Origin: Gemmatimonadaceae bacterium
GTDB taxonomy: Bacteria > Gemmatimonadota > Gemmatimonadetes > Gemmatimonadales > Gemmatimonadaceae
Assembly: GCA_030835125.1 (NCBI GenBank)
Contig: JAUQWM010000035.1
Span: forward strand, 1 to 64,000
Reading direction: 5' to 3'
DNA: 64,000 nucleotides
A program made the position numbers and the translations under genes. Shown here piece after piece: positions 7,762 through 28,580 of this stretch. Numbering within the stretch: position 1 is the stretch's first letter; each line of letters begins with the position of its first letter. Under the pieces are notes generated by a model. The model was not told where the DNA came from and searched no databases. It saw only the letters and a program-made list of their open reading frames with translations.

Positions 7762-7835
7762 GCCCCTGTAGCTCAGGTGGATAGAGCAGCGGTTTCCTAA
7801 ACCGTTGGCCGCGTGTTCGAGTCACGCCAGGGGCA
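7762..7835 (+). tRNA. tRNA-Arg (anticodon CCT, reads AGG)
   Basis: A full cloverleaf can be drawn. Acceptor GCCCCTG (7762-7768) pairs with CAGGGGC (7828-7834). The D stem is GCTC/GAGC, the anticodon stem GCGGT/ACCGT (one G-U) with loop TTCCTAA, and the T stem GCGTG/CACGC with loop TTCGAGT. The anticodon CCT is at 7796-7798 and the discriminator is A7835. The following bases are CTG, so CCA is not encoded and must be added after transcription. Confidence 0.96.
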
Positions 7836-7902
7836 CTGTTACCGGACGCAACCTCCGGGCGGGGGATCGTCCCGCTCGTCACGTTTTCATCCTGATCCTG
7901 CA

Positions 7903-8559
7903 ATGGCCAAGACAGACGCAGTACCGGCAGACCTCGAGGACCGCACCGAGACCCTCGTGGAGTGGTCGAAGGCGAACGCGAACAAGTTGGCGATCGCCGG
8001 GCTGGGGATCGTGGCGGTCGCGGCCGTGGTGTTCATGTGGCGGGCGTTTGCGGAAAAGAAGGAGACCCGCGCCAGCGCCGCCCTGGGCTCCGCCCAGATG
8101 GTGGTGGCGTCGGGGAATGCCGCCCTGGCGCAGTCGGACCTGCAGTCGCTGATCAGCCGGTATGGGGGCACGAAGGCGGCGATCCAGGCCAGGATGCTCC
8201 TCGCCCAGGTCCATTTTGGCCAGGGAAAGGTCGACGAGGGACTCCGGGAACTGGACGCAATTGGCTCAGCCGGCCCGTACACGGCGTCCGTTCATGCGCT
8301 CAAGGGCGCCGGCCTTGAGCAGTCCGGCAAGGCGGCAGAGGCCGCGGCAGCCTACGTCCAGGCAGCGAACGCGGCAGTAACGGCGGCCTCCAAGGCCGGC
8401 TACAACTCGGACGCCGCCCGGGCCTACGCGGCGGGCGGAGATACCGCGGCAGCCCTCCGGATCTGGGAAGCGATGGCCAGCGACGACGCCAACCCGATGT
8501 CCGGCGAGGCGAAGGTTCGTGTCGGCGAGCTCAAGGTGAAGCCGATCGGTCAGGGTTAG
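7903..8559 (+). CDS. YfgM-like TPR protein with one membrane anchor
   Basis: This 218-residue protein has one hydrophobic segment at about 29-47 preceded by a short charged N-terminus, then Ala-rich helical repeats that look like degenerate TPRs. That layout matches the YfgM / tetratricopeptide family, periplasmic chaperone-network partners anchored in the inner membrane. ATG 7903 is chosen because the segment before it overlaps the tRNA gene. No strong ribosome binding site is visible. An intrinsic terminator follows 28 nt after the stop. This is the last + strand gene before the orientation switch. Confidence 0.8.
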   Translation: MAKTDAVPADLEDRTETLVEWSKANANKLAIAGLGIVAVAAVVFMWRAFAEKKETRASAALGSAQMVVASGNAALAQSDLQSLISRYGGTKAAIQARMLLAQVHFGQGKVDEGLRELDAIGSAGPYTASVHALKGAGLEQSGKAAEAAAAYVQAANAAVTAASKAGYNSDAARAYAAGGDTAAALRIWEAMASDDANPMSGEAKVRVGELKVKPIGQG

Positions 8560-8587
8560 CAGGCAAGTGTCGCGAGGCTGGCGCTGA

Positions 8588-8619
8588 GGGGCCGGACACC
8601 TGTGTGGTCCGGCCCCTTT
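8588..8619 (+). terminator. intrinsic terminator after the YfgM-like gene
   Basis: A perfect 10-bp stem, GGGGCCGGAC (8588-8597) with GTCCGGCCCC (8607-8616), has a 9-nt loop and is followed by TTT. It closes the + strand gene run just before the putative dif site. Confidence 0.85.
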
Positions 8620-8637
8620 GCCTGGCCTGTCTCCAGA

Positions 8638-8665
8638 ACTACCGATAATAGATGTTATGTAAAGT
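8638..8665 (+). other. dif: candidate dif site (XerC/XerD chromosome dimer resolution)
   Basis: The 28 bp read as an 11-nt arm ACTACCGATAA, a 6-nt centre TAGATG and an 11-nt arm TTATGTAAAGT. The right arm differs at one position from the Bacillus subtilis dif XerD-type arm as I recall it (TTATGTAAACT), and overall about 22 of 28 positions agree. It is strikingly AT-rich for this genome. It lies in the convergent gap 8560-8897, exactly where gene orientation flips from all + to nearly all -, as expected at a replication terminus. Apart from the terminator, this site and the palindrome at 8677-8707, I see no gene in that 338-nt gap. Confidence 0.8.
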
Positions 8666-8676
8666 GACGCTGTGGA

Positions 8677-8707
8677 GACCTGTGGAAAACCGGTTCCCCA
8701 CCAGGTC
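8677..8707. repeat. imperfect palindrome beside dif
   Basis: GACCTG-TGG-AA-AACCGGTT-CC-CCA-CCAGGTC forms an inverted repeat centred on AACCGGTT, 11 nt right of the dif candidate. The left half contains TGTGGAAAA, one mismatch from a DnaA box. It may be a protein-binding site or a hairpin; its role is unknown. Confidence 0.5.
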
Positions 8708-8897
8708 CGCCTGCAATACATCTCGTTGGCAGGAAAGATCTTGGCCAGTGCGTAGGATAGTCCACGTTGACCGGCTCGAGACCGCGGCTCCCCGGCGCTG
8801 CCAGTTAGGTGGAATCGTCGCACTGGCACCACGTGAGCTGCGGCCTGACAGTGGGTCAAGGCAAGCTTGGGGCCGCCTCCCGGCAAGCTCCACGAGA

Positions 8898-9713
8898 TCA
8901 AACGCCCAGCTGGATCTCCCTCAGGTGGCCCTGAAATACGAGGCGCCCTTCCCCGGACACGGTTGGTCGCTCGCCATCGAAGTTCACGACCAGTGGGGCC
9001 CCGGAACGGGTGATCAGGCGGATCGGGCCTGTCTCTCCCTTCCACTCGCGGAGCATGGCCGCCGTGGCCACGGAGCCGGACCCACAGGCCAGGGTCTCCT
9101 CCTCGACGCCACGCTCGTAGGTCCGGTAGGTCCAGTCCTGCCCGCGGCGGGACACGAAATTCACATTGGCCCCGGCGGCGAGTTGCGGGTGGTGCCGGAG
9201 CGCCCGTCCGCGCCCTTCCACGTCCACCGCATCGACGTCGCCACAGGCGACCACGAGGTGCGGGACTCCCACCCGGGCGTAACCGATCGCCGATTCGCCG
9301 GGCTCCAGGGGCGCCCCGAAGGTGGCTGCCGCGTCGGCCACGGCAGGCATGCCCACCTGCGCCTGGCCGGCCTCGTATTGCCCCGGGATGGCCCCTGAGG
9401 ACGTCATGAACGTGAAGCGCGAGCCGTTGTCTACCACCCCCAACTCCACCGCCAGGCGGACTGAACACAACGACGCGTTTCCGCAGAACTCAGCGAGGGA
9501 CCCATCGCGGTTGAAATAGCGGATGCCATAGGCATGCACCGGGTCTCGTTCCAGCAGCACCACACCGTCCGCGCCCACGCCGCGCCGTCGGTCGCACAAG
9601 GCCCCGATCACCGCGGCCGACTCGAGCGGCCCCGGGGGCTGGTCTCGAACGTCGAAGAAGACGAAGTCGTTTCCAGACCCCGTCATCTTCCAGAAGGTCT
9701 TGCCGGCAAGCAT
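8898..9713 (-). CDS. dapF: diaminopimelate epimerase
   Basis: DapF converts LL- to meso-diaminopimelate for lysine and peptidoglycan. The 271-residue protein keeps the TGSGNDF start and both catalytic cysteines, C77 in NRDGSLAEFC and C210 in LACGSGSVATA. The first motif reads CGNASLC where the family usually has CGNGxRC, a modest divergence. The start at 9713 is chosen because ATG overlaps the upstream stop (TGATG); upstream in-frame codons do not fit the family. It is the last gene of the operon with the two upstream membrane-glycan genes and ends facing dif. Confidence 0.93.
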   Translation of the reverse strand: MLAGKTFWKMTGSGNDFVFFDVRDQPPGPLESAAVIGALCDRRRGVGADGVVLLERDPVHAYGIRYFNRDGSLAEFCGNASLCSVRLAVELGVVDNGSRFTFMTSSGAIPGQYEAGQAQVGMPAVADAAATFGAPLEPGESAIGYARVGVPHLVVACGDVDAVDVEGRGRALRHHPQLAAGANVNFVSRRGQDWTYRTYERGVEEETLACGSGSVATAAMLREWKGETGPIRLITRSGAPLVVNFDGERPTVSGEGRLVFQGHLREIQLGV

Positions 9714-10435
9714 CAAACCCGTCCCGTCATGGACCACCAGCGGAGCCGCCAGACCATCCAGACCGCTTCCCGCACGATCTTCTTCGACATCTTGCTGCTC
9801 CCCTCCGTGCGATCGACGAACACGATGGGGATCTCGACGATCTTGAATCCCTTCTTCCAGGCCCTGAAGCTCATCTCGATCTGGAACGCGTAACCGTTCG
9901 ACTTGACGTCGTTTAGGTCAATCGCCTCAAGTACTTTCCTGCGAAAGCACTTGTACCCGCCGGTGGCATCGAAGACCTGGAGGCCGGTGACTGCGCGCGC
10001 ATACACGTTCGCGAAGTAGCTGAGCATCAGCCGGCCAATCGGCCAGTTCACGACCGTCACCTTGCGATCCCGATACCTCGATCCAAGGACGAGGTCGGCG
10101 TCCGCGATGCTCGCCAGGAACTGCGGGAGGTGCTGGGGATCGTGCGAGAAGTCGGCATCCATCTCGAACACGAACTCGTAGTCGCGCGTCAGGGCCCACC
10201 TGAACCCGGCGACGTACGCAGTCCCCAACCCCAGCTTCCGCTCGCGATGGATCACGCTCACTCGGCTGTCCACGGCGGCCCGTTCGTCCACCAGGGCTCC
10301 GGTGCCGTCTGGCGAGCCGTCGTCGACCACCAGGACGTCGATGATGGGCGACTGCGCCAGGACCGCTTCGATCAGCTTGAGGATGTTCTCCCGTTCGTTG
10401 TACGTCGGGACGATCACAAGGGCGCGCTCAGGCAC
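9713..10435 (-). CDS. family 2 glycosyltransferase, polyprenol-phosphate mannose synthase type
   Basis: The 240-residue protein has the GT2 layout of dolichol/polyprenol-phosphate mannosyl- or glucosyltransferases: IVPTYNERENI at the start, VVDDGSPDGT, the MDADFSHDPQ acidic metal site and a QIEMSFRAWKKG region. It lacks C-terminal membrane helices. GTG 10435 is chosen since PERALVIVPTYNE follows immediately and it overlaps the upstream stop by 8 nt. Together with the YfhO-like neighbour, which could use a polyprenyl-phosphate sugar, it suggests envelope glycan modification. The sugar is not known. Confidence 0.88.
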   Translation of the reverse strand: MPERALVIVPTYNERENILKLIEAVLAQSPIIDVLVVDDGSPDGTGALVDERAAVDSRVSVIHRERKLGLGTAYVAGFRWALTRDYEFVFEMDADFSHDPQHLPQFLASIADADLVLGSRYRDRKVTVVNWPIGRLMLSYFANVYARAVTGLQVFDATGGYKCFRRKVLEAIDLNDVKSNGYAFQIEMSFRAWKKGFKIVEIPIVFVDRTEGSSKMSKKIVREAVWMVWRLRWWSMTGRV

Positions 10436-27052: not shown

Positions 27053-27973
27053 TCACCCCCGCGGATGGTACTGCTTGTGGACCGTTCGAAGATACTCGCG
27101 GTCCACGTGCGTGTAGACCTGCGTGGTCGACACATCCGCATGCCCGAGCATCTCCTGGACCGCGCGCAGGTCGGCGCCGCCTTCCAGCAGGTGCGTCGCG
27201 AACGAATGACGAAGCGTGTGTGGCGTCACGTTGCGCTCGATCCCGGCTGCGGTCACGTGCTTCCGGAGAATCGTCCACGCGCCCATGCGCGAGAGGGGCG
27301 TGCCCCTCGCATTCAGGAACATCACGCCCTTCCCTGCGCCCCGCTCCAGGCGCGGCCTGAGCTCGCGCAGGTAGATGGCGATCGCTGCCGCCGCCGAGCG
27401 CCCGAACGGCACCAGTCGCTCCTTCCCGCCCTTCCCGAACACCCGGACCAGCCGCTCGTCCAGGTGCACGTCGCGCACTGCCACCGAGATCCACTCCGAC
27501 ACGCGCAGTCCCGCGGCGTATGCCAGTTCGAGCATCGCCTTGTCCCGATAGTACATCGGGTCGTCCTGCCGGGGCGCGGTGAGGAGCCGCTCCACCTCGG
27601 CCTGCGACAGCACCTCCGGCAGCGTCTGCCAGCGCTTCGGCATCTCGAGCCGGTCGCTGGGGTCGCCGGGCAGGACGCCTTCCGCCACGAGGAAACCGAA
27701 CCACGTGCGCAACCCCGCGATCGTCCGCCGGATGGACGATGGCGCGAGCCCCATGTCCTTCAGGTGGTATACGAAGTCGCGGAGCAGCGCCGGGGTCAGG
27801 TCCCGCGGCGTCCGCGCCGCATGCTCGCCGGCGTACGTCGCCAGGCGGATCACGTCGCGCCGGTAGGCCTCCCGGGTGCGGTCGGCGTTGCCCTGCTCCA
27901 GCGCCAGGAAGTCGTCGAAGCGCTCGAGCAGGAAGGCGCGGCGCGCCTCGTCAGGCAGCGGCGTCGCCTGCAT
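27053..27973 (-). CDS. xerD: tyrosine recombinase XerC/XerD
   Basis: Xer recombinases resolve chromosome dimers at dif. The 306-residue protein has the SAM-like N-terminal core-binding domain (about 15-100) and a catalytic domain with the full set Arg157 (GLRVSE), Lys181, His252 and Arg255 (HTLRHSFATHLL), His278 (LGHAD) and Tyr287 (VYTH). ATG 27973 gives the usual length. It could be XerC or XerD; only one copy is in the window. It lies about 19 kb from the candidate dif site. Confidence 0.9.
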   Translation of the reverse strand: MQATPLPDEARRAFLLERFDDFLALEQGNADRTREAYRRDVIRLATYAGEHAARTPRDLTPALLRDFVYHLKDMGLAPSSIRRTIAGLRTWFGFLVAEGVLPGDPSDRLEMPKRWQTLPEVLSQAEVERLLTAPRQDDPMYYRDKAMLELAYAAGLRVSEWISVAVRDVHLDERLVRVFGKGGKERLVPFGRSAAAAIAIYLRELRPRLERGAGKGVMFLNARGTPLSRMGAWTILRKHVTAAGIERNVTPHTLRHSFATHLLEGGADLRAVQEMLGHADVSTTQVYTHVDREYLRTVHKQYHPRG

Positions 27974-28580
27974 GCTTCTTCCGGCGATGCCGGTACCACG
28001 CAATGCCGATCCCGGTCACCAGCACGGTGGCGACCACCCCGGTCACCGTGCCCATCCGCCCCACGGTCCGCACGAGCTGGTCCCAGTTGGACCCGGCACG
28101 GAAGGCGGCCCAGGTGACGAGCCCGTACCACGTGCCGGACGCGAGGGTGATCGCGGCCATCGTGCCGAACCACGACGCGCGCAACGCGCCGGCGAACGGT
28201 GCCACGATCGCGCGCACCCCCGGGATGAACCGGCCGACGGCCAGCGCCAGCAACCCGTAGCGCTCGTACATCCGGCTGAGCGACGTGTCGGCGGATTCCC
28301 GGTGCTTCAGGTGGAACTTCTTCTCCGTCCACTCGGCGCCGAAGCGCCGGCCCACGGCGTACATCACCATGGCCCCGGCCACGTTGCCGAACAGGATCAG
28401 CAGGAACGCCGGCATCGGCGACTGGTCCGACCGGGCCGCGATGAACGCGCCCAGGGCGATCAGCACGTCAGCCGGGATCGGCGGGAAGATGTTCTCCGCG
28501 GCCGCCAGCAACGCCATCGCGGGAAGCAGCGTCGAGGGCGGGAGCGTCAACAGCCAATCGATGATCGCCTGGAGGTTCAC
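27951..28580 (-). CDS. DedA-family (VTT/SNARE-associated) membrane protein
   Basis: The 209-residue protein has the DedA pattern: NIFPPIPADVLIALGAF near the N-terminus with membrane-embedded prolines, FGNVAGAMVMYAVGRRFG, the amphipathic GRFIPGVRAIVAPFAG motif with conserved Arg, and a C-terminal membrane helix followed by a basic tail. Family members act as undecaprenyl-phosphate or phospholipid transporters. GTG 28580 overlaps ispF (GTGA). Its 3' end overlaps the xerD start by 23 nt. Confidence 0.9.
   Translation of the reverse strand: MNLQAIIDWLLTLPPSTLLPAMALLAAAENIFPPIPADVLIALGAFIAARSDQSPMPAFLLILFGNVAGAMVMYAVGRRFGAEWTEKKFHLKHRESADTSLSRMYERYGLLALAVGRFIPGVRAIVAPFAGALRASWFGTMAAITLASGTWYGLVTWAAFRAGSNWDQLVRTVGRMGTVTGVVATVLVTGIGIAWYRHRRKKHAGDAAA

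Follow-up and report, generated by a model that had tools for sequence, protein, structure and literature searches.

The 28-bp sequence at positions 8638-8665 is almost certainly the single chromosomal dif of this bacterium, a canonical XerCD/dif site for dimer resolution via XerC/XerD and FtsK. Such a site is the place near the end of replication where XerC and XerD separate joined sister chromosomes, a routine piece of bacterial housekeeping. An earlier note had put the sequence forward as a candidate dif, and we now assign it to the canonical class because the site is unique, its conservation is confined to the 28 bp, the genome encodes XerD, a best-match XerC and an FtsK with a gamma domain, the GC skew of relatives peaks at the orthologous site, and KOPS polarity switches there. 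Positions throughout are those of the window, the whole 64,000-nucleotide stretch of DNA that was analyzed.

A unique site in a convergent gap

As read from the sequence, the 28-mer consists of an 11-bp arm, a 6-bp centre and a second 11-bp arm (Table 1); the two-arm layout, coordinates and letters given in the earlier note were exact. It is low in GC, non-coding and present in one copy, as members of the XerCD/dif class are, in an assembly that is 99% complete and consists of 73 contigs. When the window was searched with a dif-like pattern allowing up to 3 mismatches, 8638-8665 alone was returned, and 100 shuffles gave 0 matches. It is also the sole match in the whole 4.48-Mb assembly, where the reversed-pattern control gave 0. 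The earlier note had suggested looking for a second copy and had named a better dif match in another intergenic region as a finding that would speak against it; the assembly contains neither.

The site is held in a gap of 338 bp (8560-8897) between the convergent TPR-protein gene and dapF. To its left (8.6 kb), 9/9 genes are on the plus strand, and to its right the minus strand accounts for 41 of the window's 44 genes and for 73 of 83 along the contig (117 kb), the directions being our own codon-model calls and not curated annotation. Both the convergent gap and the pattern of plus-strand genes to the left and nearly all minus-strand genes to the right had been described from the letters of the window, and both hold.

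Table 1. Features at and around the dif site, with window coordinates.
Feature	Coordinates	Strand	Basis
dif site, 28 bp, ACTACCGATAA-TAGATG-TTATGTAAAGT	8638..8665	+	Unique in the genome; all 28 bp conserved exactly at the orthologous position in relatives
Left arm ACTACCGATAA, putative XerC-binding half-site	8638..8648	+	Homologous to dif of E. coli and B. subtilis
Central hexamer TAGATG, crossover region	8649..8654	+	Unconstrained in the search pattern
Right arm TTATGTAAAGT, putative XerD-binding half-site	8655..8665	+	Matches the known XerD arm
TPR_21-family protein, left neighbour, converges on dif	7813..8559	+	Pfam PF09976, E 5.4e-14; ortholog left of dif in most relatives
Intrinsic-terminator-like hairpin GGGGCCGGACAC...GTCCGGCCCC-TTT, ends the TPR gene	8588..8619	+	Sequence and fold of 8566-8640
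dapF (diaminopimelate epimerase), right neighbour, converges on dif	8898..9737	-	Pfam PF01678, E 7.5e-34; relatives have an ortholog to the right of dif
xerD (tyrosine recombinase), on the XerD-arm side at a distance of 18.4 kb, reads toward dif	27053..28003	-	NCBIfam TIGR02225, 344.5 bits vs cut-off 329.6

Four tyrosine recombinases are found in the assembly. In addition to xerD, there is a XerC candidate on contig 52, for which TIGR02224 is the best match at 312.9, below the equivalog cut-off of 335.15. Its gene lies in the order trmFO-xerC-hslV-hslU (neighbours named from their sequences), and with this context in support of XerC the genome encodes two recombinases, XerC and XerD. The FtsK from contig 34 comprises an alpha, a motor and a gamma domain, the last of which (PF09397) scores 84.7 bits.

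Sites and gene order in relatives

A match to the dif pattern with up to 3 mismatches was detected in 168 of 298 genomes of the phylum, almost always as a single copy, and the reversed control pattern gave zero in most of the 298. A relaxed core pattern, whose matches include a few chance ones, especially in AT-richer genomes, matched 64 of the 70 genomes that were re-tested, among them 32 of 33 chosen for being without a match under the stricter pattern. A scan of genome contigs based on dapF returned a single distant locus and no named relative carrying dif. Using a pattern with the left arm shifted by one base, a 28-mer common to G148 and G279 was also picked up; we read it as a coincidence of related coding sequence and not as dif, because both copies adjoin a leucine-rich-repeat reading frame.

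Some genomes carry more than one site. Two identical dif copies are present in each of four drafts (G282, G178, G038 and G168), with at least one of the two about 700 bp or less from the start of a contig; these could be due to assembly breaks at dif, a strain mixture, or elements integrated at dif. On a single contig of G157 (C1), two dif-like sites in opposite orientation lie 2.95 Mb apart, at 777056 and 3732205. The latter is the likelier chromosomal dif because xerD is 21 kb away.

The TPR-dif-dapF order and the polarity of dif are conserved across the order and are kept in families f1 and f2. In these families the block to the left is der-merR-surE-apt, and the block to the right holds a YfhO-like gene, glycosyltransferase-like genes and rpoN. 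In f5, the right block is partly retained and dapF was not detected. The position of xerD is similarly regular: among 115 genomes with a dif candidate and xerD on one contig (pairs compiled by hand), 108 have the gene on the side of the XerD arm and oriented toward dif, at a distance of 16.0-45.7 kb (median 20.5 kb). This pattern is not followed by G284, G198, G069, G075, G125, G129 and G165; for G129 and G165, the site taken as dif is probably a wrong one. In five genomes of f11, the most distant family sampled and related at the level of the phylum only, the two loci fall on separate contigs. No linkage of xerC to dif was found in the finished genomes examined.

GC skew and KOPS polarity

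On its own contig (contig 10), GC skew is +0.021 to the left of dif and -0.008 to the right; the signs are the expected ones but the values are weak and close to zero, a point against the dif reading, and the assembly is in 73 contigs. The best finished relative is G019, a member of the same family with a single 4.64-Mb contig (4,636,964 bp). Its sampled skew is mostly positive before dif and mostly negative beyond, and its cumulative skew peaks in the 20-kb sample containing dif, 41.6% of the way round the circle from dnaA. The fitted skew change falls at 1.85-1.97 Mb, with dif at 1.930 Mb, and 0/200 permutations were as good. Since dnaA is at 449 bp, the turn coincides with dif and not with the midpoint at 2.32 Mb, which is 0.39 Mb off. 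In G073 the skew fit is also strong (1/200 permutations), with the change placed 90-250 kb beyond dif and the cumulative peak in the sample immediately before it. The change is placed at dif in G058 as well, where the signal is weak and not significant (77/200 permutations). No skew turn at dif was seen in the single contig of G198 (permutation 111/200). With only 26% of the circle between its dif and dnaA, this record may be mis-ordered. Over the 10 kb on either side of dif, skew is higher to the left than to the right in 16 of 20 genomes.

The earlier note had also read the site as marking the replication terminus. For the terminus region this stands: dif is roughly opposite dnaA in relatives, at 42-50% of the circle in nine finished or nearly finished genomes, some with rounded sizes (G019, G039, G074, G073, G058, G017, G080, G069 and G070). 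It does not extend to the exact point at which the forks meet. dif is the point of FtsK/Xer convergence in the terminus region, the place at which FtsK-directed segregation finishes and dimers are resolved, and replication need not finish exactly there (PMC3025954, PMC6199493, PMC13342612). As a separate observation, G019, G039, G073, G074, G129, G198, G069 and G075 have, besides the normal dnaA, a reading frame of some 590-770 aa in which the DnaA ATPase domain is matched twice; in the first four of these genomes its distance to dif is 0.2-0.3 Mb.

KOPS polarity switches at dif. An unbiased ranking of 26,634 eight-letter words, each allowed at most one free base, was made by their orientation toward versus away from dif within 10 kb of the 21 sites of 20 relatives and the source genome. 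The most polarized 8-mer was GGGNAGGG, which is the E. coli KOPS, with 110 copies toward dif and 9 away (110/119; relatedness among the genomes inflates the P-values for the pooled loci). On the site's own contig, the toward:away counts are 22:6 to the right of dif and 3:0 to the left. Within the genes of this contig they are 19:1, as compared with 11.4:6.6 after synonymous shuffling, a shift of about 2.5 standard deviations for each count. Moreover, in G173 the called genes run in the same direction on both sides of dif, yet 4/4 copies of GGGNAGGG point at it, indicating that the polarity does not merely follow gene direction.

These data bear on whether the 28-mer might instead be a dif-like attachment site that a mobile element, such as a Xer-exploiting integrative element or a plasmid pdif, carries or has left behind. 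Elements of this sort do use Xer sites, and in some relatives two dif copies are found near contig ends. However, the source genome has one copy, the genes flanking it are housekeeping genes whose order is kept across the order, and skew and KOPS both switch at the orthologous site, making a mobile origin very unlikely.

Conservation confined to 28 bp

When 19 loci were aligned on dif without gaps, conservation was high within the 28 bp and at background beyond both edges. In the left arm of the relatives' sites, position 5 (C, 100%) and positions 8-11 (ATAA) are invariant, and in the right arm TTATGT is invariant. The second base of the central hexamer (position 13) is A in 91% and the fifth (position 16) is T in 94%. 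Position 5 and both central positions were left free in the search pattern, so their near-fixed bases constitute independent evidence. The polarity of the site at L052 matches that of the other loci.

Conservation confined in this way is the footprint of a site for two recombinases and not that of a gene, RNA or terminator. A role as a conserved transcription terminator or as an RNA element between convergent genes, with Xer not involved, would fit the convergent gap and the terminator hairpin that ends 18 bp to the left of the 28-mer. Yet this hairpin is separate and is not conserved in the aligned columns, whereas what is conserved has two arms and a 6-bp centre and matches known dif arms. 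We consider this explanation even less probable than a mobile element.

A weight matrix built from the sites of 78 relatives, which is partly circular because those sites came from a pattern modelled on the 28-mer, gives 8638-8665 a score of 49.6 bits. The best score in the rest of the 125.8-kb contig is -12.3, aside from the 28-mer read backwards (1.0). A chance AT-rich sequence, a reading favoured by the shortness of the site and nothing more, is essentially inconceivable and already refuted, as 20 Mb of GC-matched random sequence reaches a maximum of 7.4 bits and orthologous copies are present in relatives.

Discussion

The identification of 8638-8665 as dif points to the following mechanism. 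Recombination between sister chromosomes would generate a dimer. Septum-bound FtsK would then track GGGNAGGG (KOPS), pointing at dif from both sides, join two dif copies and activate XerD. With XerC bound to the left arm and XerD to the right, strand exchange across the 6-bp centre would convert the dimer to monomers. We infer the arm assignment, XerC/XerD binding, FtsK activation and recombination from sequence.

The site shares with the XerCD/dif systems of E. coli and B. subtilis its 28-bp length, the 11-6-11 layout, the right arm TTATGT.AA., a single intergenic copy of low GC, the position at the skew peak (here at the orthologous site of relatives), and two recombinases together with FtsK-gamma. 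The KOPS motif is that of E. coli (PMC2680272). Thus, the kind of site is already known, and dif was predicted in this phylum in 2011. In that study, Kono et al. predicted it in 1/1 Gemmatimonadetes genome (PMC3025954); the present prediction is of the same type in the same phylum, but covers hundreds of genomes and adds synteny, xerD linkage and KOPS.

The arrangement of the recombinase genes is where this system departs from canonical XerCD/dif. Here a distance of about 20 kb separates xerD from dif and xerC is elsewhere, whereas the trend in a general survey is the opposite: overall, xerC is the closer of the two to dif and xerD the closer to the origin (PMC3025954). Going by that survey, the dif-xerD linkage is mildly unusual for a two-recombinase system. 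The conserved TPR-dif-dapF order and dif polarity are mildly unusual as well, and in most of the phylum the surroundings of the site and of xerD have stayed the same. A xer gene linked to its dif is likewise found in the XerS/difSL and XerH/difH systems, but these have one recombinase, an atypical site and an adjacent gene (PMC2731167); the two recombinases and canonical site found here, with the gene about 20 kb off, rule out a system of that type. The simplest reading is that the xerD linkage and the TPR-dif-dapF arrangement are inherited gene order. A stronger proposal, which we regard as unlikely, is that evolution has fixed the terminus in the phylum's main class, with dif and its polarity, TPR-dif-dapF and xerD about 20 kb off being held together, possibly by selection, in a two-recombinase system. 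Such selection might act, for example, through late replication or low dosage of xerD, or through a locked dif/KOPS geometry.

About a quarter of proteobacterial dif sites adjoin mobility genes (PMC2731167), and the stable terminus neighbourhood described here stands in contrast to this. The terminus of the draft genome has now been placed. With the dif model, the KOPS motif and the landmark formed by TPR-dif-dapF with xerD 20 kb off, the terminus is placeable in most genomes of a little-studied phylum, and the same landmark is useful for ordering draft contigs.
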